64,000 bases of DNA from Flexivirga endophytica (lineage in GTDB: Bacteria > Actinomycetota > Actinomycetes > Actinomycetales > Dermatophilaceae). Shown one piece after another: positions 33,944 to 50,785 of the stretch. The first letter of the stretch is position 1. Each line of letters begins with the position of its first letter. The notes below the pieces were generated by a model. It was not told the origin of the DNA and did no database searches. It worked only from the letters and a program-made list of their open reading frames with translations. A program made the position numbers and the translations under genes. Where the stretch lies: contig NZ_BMHI01000007.1 of NCBI RefSeq assembly GCF_014640635.1, positions 174,295 to 238,294 on the forward strand, in the 5' to 3' direction.

Positions 33944-34684
33944 TTACTCCTTCTCGGAGCCCTCGGCGTCGTCAGCCTCAGCGGCCTCGGCGTCGTCCGC
34001 CTCGACCTGCTGAGCCTTCTCGCCACCGGCCGGCTCGAAGCCTGCGGCAGCAGCGGCCTCGGCCGTGGTGAACCAGACCTCGGCGACGGTCGAGTCGTAC
34101 CAACGCGAACCGGCGACGTGGTACTTCATCGAGTCCTCGTTGCCCTTGACCGTGAACTTCTCAGCGTCGGGCGACGCGCCGCCCTCGAGCGGAGCAGCGG
34201 ACTCGGGACCGAACTTGCCCTCGGCGGACTCGTCGGTGGACTCGGCAGCAGCCGCGTCCTCCTTGACCGAACGCTTCGTGGCGGCCTCGGCCTCGGCAAC
34301 GACGGCGCGCTTCGGCTTGGCGTTGACCGGCTCGCGAACGAGTTCGATGACGGCCATCGGCGCGTTGTCGCCCTTGCGGGGACCGATCTTGGTGATGCGG
34401 GTGTAGCCGCCCTGGCGGTCGGCCATGTCGGGCGCGATCTCGGTGAAGAGACGGTGCACGACACCCTTGTCACGGATGACGGTCATGACCCGACGACGGG
34501 CGTGCAGGTCACCGCGCTTGGCGAAGGTGACCAGACGCTCGGCGAGCGGGCGCAGCCGCTTTGCCTTGGCCTCGGTCGTGGTGATCCGGTCGTGCTCGAA
34601 CAGTGCCTGCGCCAGGTTGGCCAGGATCAGCCGCTCGTGCGCGGGGCCGCCACCGAGACGGGGACCCTTTGTTGGGGTAGGCAT
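33944..34684 (-). CDS. rplQ: 50S ribosomal protein L17 with an extra C-terminal module
   Basis: 246 aa, about twice the usual bacterial L17. Residues 1-118 are normal L17 (GPRLGGGPAHERLILANLAQ; PLAERLVTFAKRGDLHARR). Residues 119-154 are a charged linker. Residues of about 155-221 form a module ending FTVKGNEDSMKYHVAGSRWY, DSTVAEVWFTTAEAAAAAGF, then an acidic tail. The same module is at the C-terminus of L4 (49898-50098). It is the last gene of the alpha operon. The module's role is unknown to me. Confidence 0.96.
   Translation of the reverse strand: MPTPTKGPRLGGGPAHERLILANLAQALFEHDRITTTEAKAKRLRPLAERLVTFAKRGDLHARRRVMTVIRDKGVVHRLFTEIAPDMADRQGGYTRITKIGPRKGDNAPMAVIELVREPVNAKPKRAVVAEAEAATKRSVKEDAAAAESTDESAEGKFGPESAAPLEGGASPDAEKFTVKGNEDSMKYHVAGSRWYDSTVAEVWFTTAEAAAAAGFEPAGGEKAQQVEADDAEAAEADDAEGSEKE
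34022..34222 (-). other. L17 copy of the shared C-terminal module
   Basis: Covers L17 residues of about 155-221. In the 45-residue core from FTVKGN to GFEPAGG, 41 residues match the L4 copy (differences E/K, S/A, T/K, E/A). The DNA is also closely similar. The pattern GNxDSxxYHxxxSRWYxxT...WFxTxExAxAAGF resembles the Zn-type tail of thermonuclease and Ada-like proteins, but with the usual Cys replaced by Ser. Confidence 0.85.
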
Positions 34685-34751
34685 GAATTCTCCTTGTATG
34701 TCGAATCACGTTGTCCTACAACGTGATTCCGCGAACGTTGGTGGCGGTTGC

Positions 34752-35771
34752 TCAGTACTGCTCGTCTTCGGCGAAGCTGCCGTCGGCGTCCTCGTCGTCG
34801 TAACGGTCCGCAATGGCGCTCGCGTCGAACCCGGGAGGGCTGTCCTTGAGCTGCAGGCCCATCTCGACCAGCTTGTCCTTGACCTCGTCGATGGACTTCG
34901 CACCGAAGTTGCGGATGTCCAGCAGGTCGGCCTCGCTGCGTCCGACGAGCTCACCCACAGTGTGGATGCCCTCGCGCTTGAGGCAGTTGTAGGAGCGGAC
35001 CGTCAGGTCCAGGTCCTCGATCGGCAGCGCCAGGTCGGCGGCCAGGGCGGCGTCGGTCGGGCTCGGGCCCATGTCGATGCCCTCGGCCTCGACGTTGAGC
35101 TCGCGGGCCAGGCCGAACAGCTCGACCAGGGTCTTGCCGGCGGAGGCCATGGCGTCGCGCGGGGCGATGGCGTTCTTGGTCTCCACGTCGACGATCAGCT
35201 TGTCGAAGTCGGTGCGCTGCTCGACACGGGTCGCTTCGACCTTGTAGGTCACGGCGAGGACCGGCGAGTAGATCGAGTCGACCGGGATGCGGCCGATCTC
35301 GTGATCGGCCGACTTGTTCTGCTGCGCCGAGACGTAGCCGCGGCCGCGCTCGACGGTCAGCTCCATCTCGATCTTGCCCTTGTCGTTCAGGGTCGCGATG
35401 TGCAGGTCGGCGTTGTGCACCTCGACACCGGCCGGCGGTGCGATGTCGGCGGCGGTGACCTCGCCGGGCCCCTGCTTGCGCAGGTACATGACGACCGGCT
35501 CGTCGTGCTCCGAGGAGACGACCAGGCCCTTGACGTTCAGGATGATCTCGGTGACGTCTTCCTTGACACCTGGGATCGTGGAGAACTCGTGCTGCACGCC
35601 GTCGATGCGCAGGCTGGTGACCGCGGCACCCGGGATGCTCGAGAGCAGCGTGCGACGCAGGGAGTTGCCGAGCGTGTAGCCGAAGCCCGGCTCCAGCGGC
35701 TCGATGACGAAACGCGAGCGGTTGTCGGAGACAACGTCTTCGCTGAGTGAGGGGCGCTGTGCAATAAGCAC
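34752..35771 (-). CDS. rpoA: DNA-directed RNA polymerase subunit alpha
   Basis: 339 aa from the GTG at 35771. The N-terminal dimerisation and assembly domain (RFVIEPLEPGFGYTLGNSLR) and the C-terminal helix-hairpin-helix domain (SYNCLKREGIHTVGELVGRS) are complete. The C-terminal tail is acidic. It lies between rpsD and rplQ as expected in the alpha operon. Confidence 0.98.
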   Translation of the reverse strand: MLIAQRPSLSEDVVSDNRSRFVIEPLEPGFGYTLGNSLRRTLLSSIPGAAVTSLRIDGVQHEFSTIPGVKEDVTEIILNVKGLVVSSEHDEPVVMYLRKQGPGEVTAADIAPPAGVEVHNADLHIATLNDKGKIEMELTVERGRGYVSAQQNKSADHEIGRIPVDSIYSPVLAVTYKVEATRVEQRTDFDKLIVDVETKNAIAPRDAMASAGKTLVELFGLARELNVEAEGIDMGPSPTDAALAADLALPIEDLDLTVRSYNCLKREGIHTVGELVGRSEADLLDIRNFGAKSIDEVKDKLVEMGLQLKDSPPGFDASAIADRYDDEDADGSFAEDEQY

Positions 35772-35910
35772 TTCTTGTTTCCTTTCCTCAGGGCCACCGC
35801 TATATGAAGCCCTGTGAACCGCAAACGACTCTGTATTCGCTTGCCGCTATTGAGTTGTATGCCGACAGCGCCGGTCGAGCAGCGTGCCGCTGCTCGACCG
35901 GCGTGCGGAC

Positions 35911-49505: not shown

Positions 49506-49544
49506 TGTCTGTCCTTAGGAGTCTTGTCTGCGGGCGATCGTTCT

Positions 49545-49850
49545 TCAGGCCTGCGAGCCGAAGATGTCGATCGCGCCTTCCTTGAGCGAGACGATGGCGC
49601 GCTTGGTGTCCTTGCGCTTACCGGTGCCGAAGCGGGTCCGGCGCGTCTTGCCCTGACGATTCATGGTGTGGACCGAGTCGACCTTGACGTCGAAGATCTC
49701 CTCGACGGCGATCTTGATCTCGGTCTTGTTCGCCCGCGGGTCGACGAGGAAGGTGTACTTGCCCTCGTCGAGCAGCGCGTAGGACTTCTCCGAGACGACC
49801 GGCGCGATCAGGATGTCGCGCGGGTTCTTGCCCAGTTGCGTCATGGCCAC
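49545..49850 (-). CDS. rplW: 50S ribosomal protein L23
   Basis: 101 aa from the GTG at 49850; the ATG at 49844 is the alternative, but its spacing to AAGGA is long. NPRDILIAPVVSEKSYALLD and FLVDPRANKTEIKIAVEEIF mark L23, at the tunnel exit where trigger factor and SRP dock. Confidence 0.96.
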   Translation of the reverse strand: MAMTQLGKNPRDILIAPVVSEKSYALLDEGKYTFLVDPRANKTEIKIAVEEIFDVKVDSVHTMNRQGKTRRTRFGTGKRKDTKRAIVSLKEGAIDIFGSQA

Positions 49851-49852
49851 AA

Positions 49853-50785
49853 TCACTTGTCCTTCTCGGATTGCACGTCGGTCTTCTGCGCGGCAGCGCC
49901 ACCCGCCGGGGCGAACCCGGCAGCAGCGGCGGCCTCGGCCGTCTTGAACCACACCTCGGCGACCGTGGCGTCATACCAACGGGAACCGGCGACGTGGTAC
50001 TTCATCGAGTCCTTGTTGCCCTTGACCGTGAAGGTCTGCGGGTCCGGTGACGCACCATCGGCCAGCGGGGCGGCCGAGTCGGCGCCGAAGCCACCGTCGG
50101 CGACCTCGGTCTGCGCGGCCTTCGCCGGAGCGGCTGCGGCCGGTGCCGCCTTGACCGCGGCGGCCGGGCCTGCCAGGAAGCGCTCCAGCGCAGCCTGGGA
50201 GAAGACCAGGTCGTCGGCGCACAACACGTCGTAAGTGTTGAGCTGGTCGGCGAACAGGATGTGCACGTCGGCGAGGTTGCGGACCGACAGCAGCGCGGCC
50301 TGCTCCTCGCGGCTCAGCACCACGAGGAGGTTCTTGCGCTCGGTCAGCGCACCCAGCACCGCGGCCGCCGTCTTCGTCGACGGCTGGTCGCCCTCGACCA
50401 GCGAGGTCAGCACGTGGATGCGGTCGTGACGGGCCCGGTCGGACAGGGCACCGCGGAGCGCGGCGGCCTTCATCTTCTTTGGGGTCCGCTGCGCGTAGTC
50501 GCGCGGCTTCGGTCCGTGCACGATGCCACCGCCGGCGAACTGCGGGGCGCGGGTCGAACCCTGACGGGCGCGACCGGTTCCCTTCTGGCGGTAGGGCTTG
50601 CGACCACCACCGCGGACCTCGCCGCGGGTCTTGGTGGAGTGCGTGCCCTGGCGTGCTGCCGCGAGCTGCGCCACCACGACCTGGTGGATCAGCGGGACGT
50701 TGGTCTGCACGTCGAAGATCTCGGCCGGCAGCTCGACGGTGCCCGCCGTGGCGCCAGTGGCGCTCTTGATGTCAACGGTCGTCAT
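49853..50785 (-). CDS. rplD: 50S ribosomal protein L4 with an extra C-terminal module
   Basis: 310 aa, about 90 longer than a standard L4. The body (residues 1-208) has the tunnel loop RGGGRKPYRQKGTGRARQGS and the core LVVLSREEQAALLSVRNLAD. An Ala/Pro/Lys linker follows. Residues of about 230-296 form the same module as in L17 (FTVKGNKDSMKYHVAGSRWY, DATVAEVWFKTAEAAAAAGF). The protein ends with a short charged tail. Located between rplC and rplW as usual. Confidence 0.97.
   Translation of the reverse strand: MTTVDIKSATGATAGTVELPAEIFDVQTNVPLIHQVVVAQLAAARQGTHSTKTRGEVRGGGRKPYRQKGTGRARQGSTRAPQFAGGGIVHGPKPRDYAQRTPKKMKAAALRGALSDRARHDRIHVLTSLVEGDQPSTKTAAAVLGALTERKNLLVVLSREEQAALLSVRNLADVHILFADQLNTYDVLCADDLVFSQAALERFLAGPAAAVKAAPAAAAPAKAAQTEVADGGFGADSAAPLADGASPDPQTFTVKGNKDSMKYHVAGSRWYDATVAEVWFKTAEAAAAAGFAPAGGAAAQKTDVQSEKDK
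49898..50098 (-). other. L4 copy of the shared C-terminal module
   Basis: Covers L4 residues of about 230-296. Similarity to the L17 copy starts earlier than the core, at GGFGADSAAPLADGASPD (L17: GKFGPESAAPLEGGASPD). The near-identical DNA over at least 130 bp suggests recent duplication or gene conversion between rplD and rplQ. Confidence 0.85.

Follow-up and report, generated by a model that had tools for sequence, protein, structure and literature searches.

The C-terminal ends of two ribosomal proteins, L17 and L4, encoded in a 64,000-nucleotide stretch of the Flexivirga endophytica genome (contig NZ_BMHI01000007.1, positions 174,295 to 238,294; hereafter the window), carry the same additional module, the sunset domain. 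Here we propose that this module is an interchangeable docking tag by which ribosomes are moored to membrane-anchored proteins bearing a matching copy, a reading that we hold tentatively and to which we assign a probability of about 0.4. Carried on a flexible string, the module would act as a tag wherever it is hung; ribosome-clan modules would bind membrane-clan modules, whether directly or by way of a single common partner, and such binding would hold ribosomes near the cell envelope. That the place of the tag should not matter is suggested by the occurrence of the same flexibly linked module on different proteins of both ribosomal subunits, on a factor of RNA polymerase and on complexes of the membrane, and the mooring is assigned to membrane-type copies because they are the only matching class that these genomes offer. 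If true, bacteria would possess a dedicated and portable means of bringing ribosomes, a transcription factor and respiratory complexes to the membrane. We know of no comparable ribosome-placing system in bacteria.

In both L17 and L4 the usual domain, whose Pfam match ends at residue 116 and at residue 203, respectively, is followed by a low-complexity linker and then by the common module (Table 1); both genes lie within the usual ribosomal cluster. Translation of the two reverse-strand stretches confirmed the genes, tails and coordinates reported in the first-pass annotation of this DNA, together with its 45-residue cores differing at four places (E/K, S/A, T/K and E/A) and its claim of similarity reaching about 20 residues further upstream, where 21 residues are alike (GKFGPESAAPLEGGASPDAEK / GGFGADSAAPLADGASPDPQT). 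The DNA is also alike, with 119 of 135 core bases and 40 of 63 upstream bases agreeing, although "close to identical", as it had been called, is too strong a wording. Judged by sequence, the likeness of the two tails is far above chance.

The name "sunset domain", offered in that annotation, proved to be correct. The module itself is already catalogued, including its L17 and L4 variants. In the NCBIfam release of June 2026, L17 and L4 exceed the curated cut-offs of their own variant models (NF051448 and NF051449, whole-protein matches) and score 72 and 70 bits against the generic model NF051437 (cut-off 27). The set further holds variants for L20 (NF051450), S2 (NF051451) and ArfC (NF051433), and the domain also exists as PF27542 in newer Pfam; a Pfam scan of L17 and L4 with a release other than the newer one gave no sunset match. 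Among the NCBIfam matches of the S16, NuoE, NusA and NuoC hosts that we scanned there was no sunset-variant model of their own; this includes the S16 of the window genome (locus L003), in contrast to L4, L17, L20 and S2, which have one. Literature searches by domain name and accessions found no biology paper on the sunset domain, nor did broader searches, judging by title or abstract opening. Beyond the catalogued ribosomal hosts, we found the module on S16, L22, S3, NusA, NuoE, NuoC, one ATP synthase gamma subunit and predicted membrane-anchored proteins.

An AlphaFold2 model of the L17 module, built with 99 related modules, has a mean predicted local distance difference test score (pLDDT) of 87.8 and a predicted template modelling score (pTM) of 0.78. 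Because residues 11-60 of this 71-residue construct score 90-94 by block, the predicted folded unit spans about 60 residues and takes in the upstream stretch, which the 42-position NF051437 model omits. In a model of full-length L17 (41 sequences) the blocks score 83-97 for residues 11-120, 44-63 for residues 121-160 and 87-93 for residues 161-220, and the pTM of 0.47 is what one would expect of two bodies joined by a flexible string. The modelled helix at residues 125-144 falls in the low-confidence part. Overall, the models predict that a short folded unit hangs from a flexible linker.

The earlier observation of an Ada-like pattern with serine at a cysteine position was borne out by profile comparison: the alignment of the module with the Ada N-terminal metal-binding domain (PF02805) scored 28.1, against at most 15.4 for controls. 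Ada domains were likewise the best fold matches of the module model, though weak ones, and PF02805 was absent among the Pfam matches of L17 and L4 up to an E-value of 1. Relative to the Ada domain, the sunset module is shorter, devoid of the metal-ligand cysteines and acidic, the net charge of 132 distinct ribosomal modules averaging -6.1. None of the 132 contains cysteine, hence there is no ligand for an Ada metal site; among membrane-type modules cysteine is found in 5 of 65, and in the secreted class, which is defined by a cysteine pair, its count is not independent. The module appears to resemble an Ada metal-binding domain whose cysteines have been lost.

Across the F. endophytica genome we found seven sunset matches: L17, L4, S16, two in the 803-residue frame of locus L186, and one each at loci L006 and L007. 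Both L186 and L006 have their modules at the end, behind an N-terminal hydrophobic segment and a long low-complexity linker, while L007 has a lipobox-like start and a cysteine pair within the module. The same module thus occurs on ribosomal proteins and on proteins with a hydrophobic segment within one genome, as the mooring proposal envisages. The concern that the module might be a local oddity was dispelled, since a sunset match above cut-off occurs in at least 49 of the 59 genomes sampled from this family, counting secreted and membrane copies and with weak copies missing from the count. The same was true of 34 of 396 genomes in a sample of the phylum.

A scan of named species genomes yielded at least 529 confirmed stretches, of which 80 loci were kept, including some from Flexivirga, Knoellia, Janibacter, Arthrobacter, Microbacterium, Kribbella, Nocardioides, Pseudonocardia and Nakamurella. 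By their titles we take all of these to be Actinomycetota, one metagenome-assembled genome (MAG) labelled Acidobacteria excepted; the L4 module on that contig (locus L245) is very like Arthrobacter modules, and the contig is perhaps mis-binned. The genome of Bacillus subtilis, included as a control, also has a match to the sunset family above cut-off.

The position of the module on the ribosome is interchangeable, the hosts being L4, L17, L20, L22, S2, S3 and S16. L4, L17, S16 and L22 were assigned by comparison with reference parts, and Pfam identified L20 (one locus, a second, L013, being cut), NuoE (four loci), NusA (one locus) and NuoC (two). S2 comes from precomputed Pfam assignments among the best 120 of 206 and the best 120 of 214 proteins in our two protein listings; S3 and the ATP synthase gamma subunit were found as one protein each. 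The gamma subunit (P0188), from an Acidimicrobiia MAG, ends in a sunset module resembling those of the membrane clan. The NuoC module (loci L144 and L145, genomes G097 and G353) is degenerate and internal, with about 120 residues after it, and G097 additionally carries an L20 copy (L008).

The membrane-type proteins have one hydrophobic segment ahead of the module or modules. In 41 of the 52 counted, the 15 residues past the segment carry a net positive charge, and by the positive-inside rule their modules are predicted to face the cytoplasm. Their linkers have a median length of 356 residues (72-665), and the number of modules per protein ranges from one to four (four in loci L066, L080 and L278). 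The ArfC variant NF051433 is alike in having an N-terminal hydrophobic segment and sunset modules at its end, and differs from the proteins described here in their long linkers and one to four modules; an example from the genus Flexivirga scores above the NF051433 cut-off by virtue of its four modules and below cut-off with the ArfC N-terminal model. In the arf locus of mycobacteria, an OmpA-domain gene lies beside ArfC. Some of the relatives studied here may be likened to it, as an OmpA-domain gene adjoins membrane-type genes in genomes G421 and G412 (by Pfam) and in G403 and G432 (linked by BLAST). The neighbours fall into synteny groups, one with purine genes and CopC and another with OmpA-domain, amidase and amidohydrolase genes, and no common function emerged from the 15 loci compared, 20 open reading frames from five of which were scanned.

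Two clans of modules were evident in a tree of 139 sequences (100 ribosomal, 34 membrane-type, 4 NuoE and 1 NusA), which were retained from 172 rows after thinning and aligned over 64 columns, with many forks unresolved. One branch, with 96% support in the Shimodaira-Hasegawa-like approximate likelihood ratio test (SH-aLRT), separates 33 membrane-type modules, the four NuoE modules and one L20 module from 99 ribosomal modules, NusA and one Nakamurella membrane-type protein (locus L277). The labels require three to four changes on the tree, against 31-34 after shuffling. By this evidence there are two groups of modules, here called the ribosome/NusA clan and the membrane/NuoE clan.

Beneath this division a shared core is preserved. 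K4, G5, H13, F29 and A35 are identical in all 123 distinct ribosomal and all 38 membrane-type cores, N6, A25, E26, A38, G39 and F40 are present in at least 95% of the cores of each set, and W28 is universal among ribosomal cores and occurs in 87% of the membrane-type ones. Because positions 4, 5, 13, 29 and 35 never vary, one site seems to be kept across hosts. Within the ribosomal cores alone, positions 4, 5, 6, 9, 13, 26, 28, 29, 35, 38 and 39 are invariant. The clans differ, ribosomal versus membrane-type, in K/L at position 11, R/Q-W versus P-x at 18-19 and A-G versus W-D at 43-44. The membrane-type set here comprises every unassigned core above 55 bits, and a few tails in it that are truncated at contig ends may be ribosomal (for example loci L056, L101, L243 and L271).

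Our confidence in mooring stays at the level given above because the co-occurrence test does not favour a strict form of it. Among 53 of the 59 same-family genomes, 30 carry both ribosomal and membrane forms, 7 ribosomal only, 8 membrane only and 8 neither (Fisher p 0.043). When G396, G437 and G448, whose copy showed no hydrophobic segment, are dropped under a stricter definition of the membrane form, the counts are 29, 8, 6 and 10 (Fisher p 0.010). The six genomes left out were G406, G426, G424 and G447 (no rpoA match) and G423 and G425, which are incomplete and gave no match to the sunset family. Several observations weigh against the proposal. Each form occurs without the other in 7 and 8 of the 53 genomes, and obligate pairing is unsupported by these counts; in the phylum sample there are mycobacteria-like genomes that have just the membrane forms, and genomes in which only L4 or only L17 bears the module; and of about five independent pairs on the tree 0.7 went the same way and 1.2 the other, which lends no support and is too few to decide. 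In addition, 11 of the 52 membrane-type proteins lack a net positive charge past the segment, and the hydrophobic segments were called by a simple hydropathy script rather than a trained predictor.

The first-pass annotation had suggested a module for ribosome-surface docking or hibernation. Docking is kept as our best guess, whereas hibernation found no specific support, and hibernation at one fixed ribosome interface does not fit hosts on either subunit, NusA, complex I and membrane proteins. A wider version of the docking proposal, which we consider rather unlikely, would have the two clans form a two-part hook-and-loop of Actinomycetota, the clan on ribosomes and NusA and the matching clan on complex I and long, single-span tethers of the membrane together holding the machinery of translation, transcription and respiration at the envelope. 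The list of hosts and the presence of two clans make the question of function directly testable.

It is also conceivable, if unlikely, that the module sticks to its own copies, so that ribosomes with several of them cluster (in storage, polysome clusters or condensates) while the membrane copies serve a separate use. Seven of the 53 genomes do have ribosomal forms only, and two tandem modules can occur on one ribosomal protein (locus L045; proteins P0010, P0038 and P0124), as one to four do on membrane-type proteins. Many genomes, however, have a single ribosomal host (for example G085, G430, G435, G442 and G446), which would give pairs and no network, and this reading has no need of two sequence clans. 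We are similarly doubtful that the module is a handle by which a third partner in the cytosol (a chaperone, protease, nucleoid or metabolic protein), common to ribosome, NusA, complex I and membrane proteins, takes hold. Such a handle would suit hosts that are otherwise unrelated large machines, and ribosomal and membrane forms change separately on the tree (10 and 9 changes); yet the neighbours of the 15 membrane-type loci share no function that would point to a partner, no search having been aimed at candidate partners.

The patchy presence of the module and its changes of host would also be expected of a functionless passenger spread between gene ends by recombination. A passenger would decay, and the 11 invariant positions of the 123 ribosomal cores and the clean predicted fold make this explanation improbable. 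Least plausible of all is that the module grips mRNA, rRNA or DNA in the manner of the Ada N-domain: it is Ada-like by profile and weakly so by fold, but the acidity of the ribosomal modules and the absence of cysteine from them leave nucleic-acid binding very unlikely.

Modules do change hosts now and then, as indicated by the L4 modules not being one clade. A tree constrained to keep the 45 L4 modules in one group, apart from 69 L17 modules, was rejected (p-AU, from the approximately unbiased test, 4.4e-7; log-likelihood lower by 148). Strict grouping by protein, the pattern that had been named as speaking against recent exchange, is ruled out by this result, and exchange is not refuted. At the same time the distribution is far from random, the L4/L17 host label changing 16 times on the tree against 36 when shuffled. 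Strict grouping by genome was likewise not observed: for the 36 ribosomal rows whose genome holds another ribosomal copy, the best match came from that genome in 9 cases (two of them tandem modules of one L17), was tied in 2 and was the same protein of another genome in 25.

The further suggestion that the two window modules are kept alike by gene conversion was not supported. They use the same codons at 28 of 37 identical residues, as in the background (mean 0.747 over 143 pairs from different ribosomal hosts and different genomes at 80% identity or more), and the nearest relative of the window L17 module is the L17 of another genome. Since codon sharing is no more than background, the likeness needs no recent event. 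By contrast, the L4 and L17 module cores of genome G404 (loci L091 and L092) share 40 of 40 codons at identical residues and 99% of bases, and look like a clear case of recent conversion, whereas an L17-S16 exchange in G418 (35 of 38 codons) is suggestive only. In Nakamurella aerolata an eye count gives only 5 differences over 43 places between the core of a membrane-type protein (L277) and that of L4 (L263), a likeness suggesting that ribosomal and membrane-type genes can exchange the module.

These results bear on a known ribosome structure. In the Cutibacterium acnes 70S ribosome, the C-terminal extension of uL4 is without density and is described as likely disordered (PMC10085706). This extension (8crx and five further entries) carries one sunset module as its last part. 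Since the prediction for the module is a folded unit with a flexible linker before it, a folded but flexibly hung end appears the likelier state. Part of a C. acnes ribosomal protein would thereby become a predicted folded domain, open to expression, binding and deletion experiments.

Table 1. Features of the L17 and L4 genes in window coordinates
Feature	Position	Strand	Basis
L17 gene, sunset-domain variant, 246 residues	33944..34684	-	NF051448, 344.6 bits (cut-off 280)
L17 linker, residues ~117-160, low complexity, predicted flexible	34205..34336	-	pLDDT 44-63 for residues 121-160
Modelled L17 module, residues 153-223; folded by prediction at ~161-222	34016..34228	-	structure model
L17 45-residue core	34022..34156	-	core comparison with L4
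L4 gene, sunset-domain variant, 310 residues	49853..50785	-	NF051449, 464.8 bits (cut-off 385)
L4 module as aligned, residues 228-298	49892..50104	-	alignment
L4 45-residue core	49898..50032	-	versus L17 core: 4/45 residues, 16/135 bases differ

Just downstream of the L17 gene and outside it, the window contains a tandem repeat array (33539-33846) with a period of 52 in 5.3 copies or of 114 in 2.8 copies.

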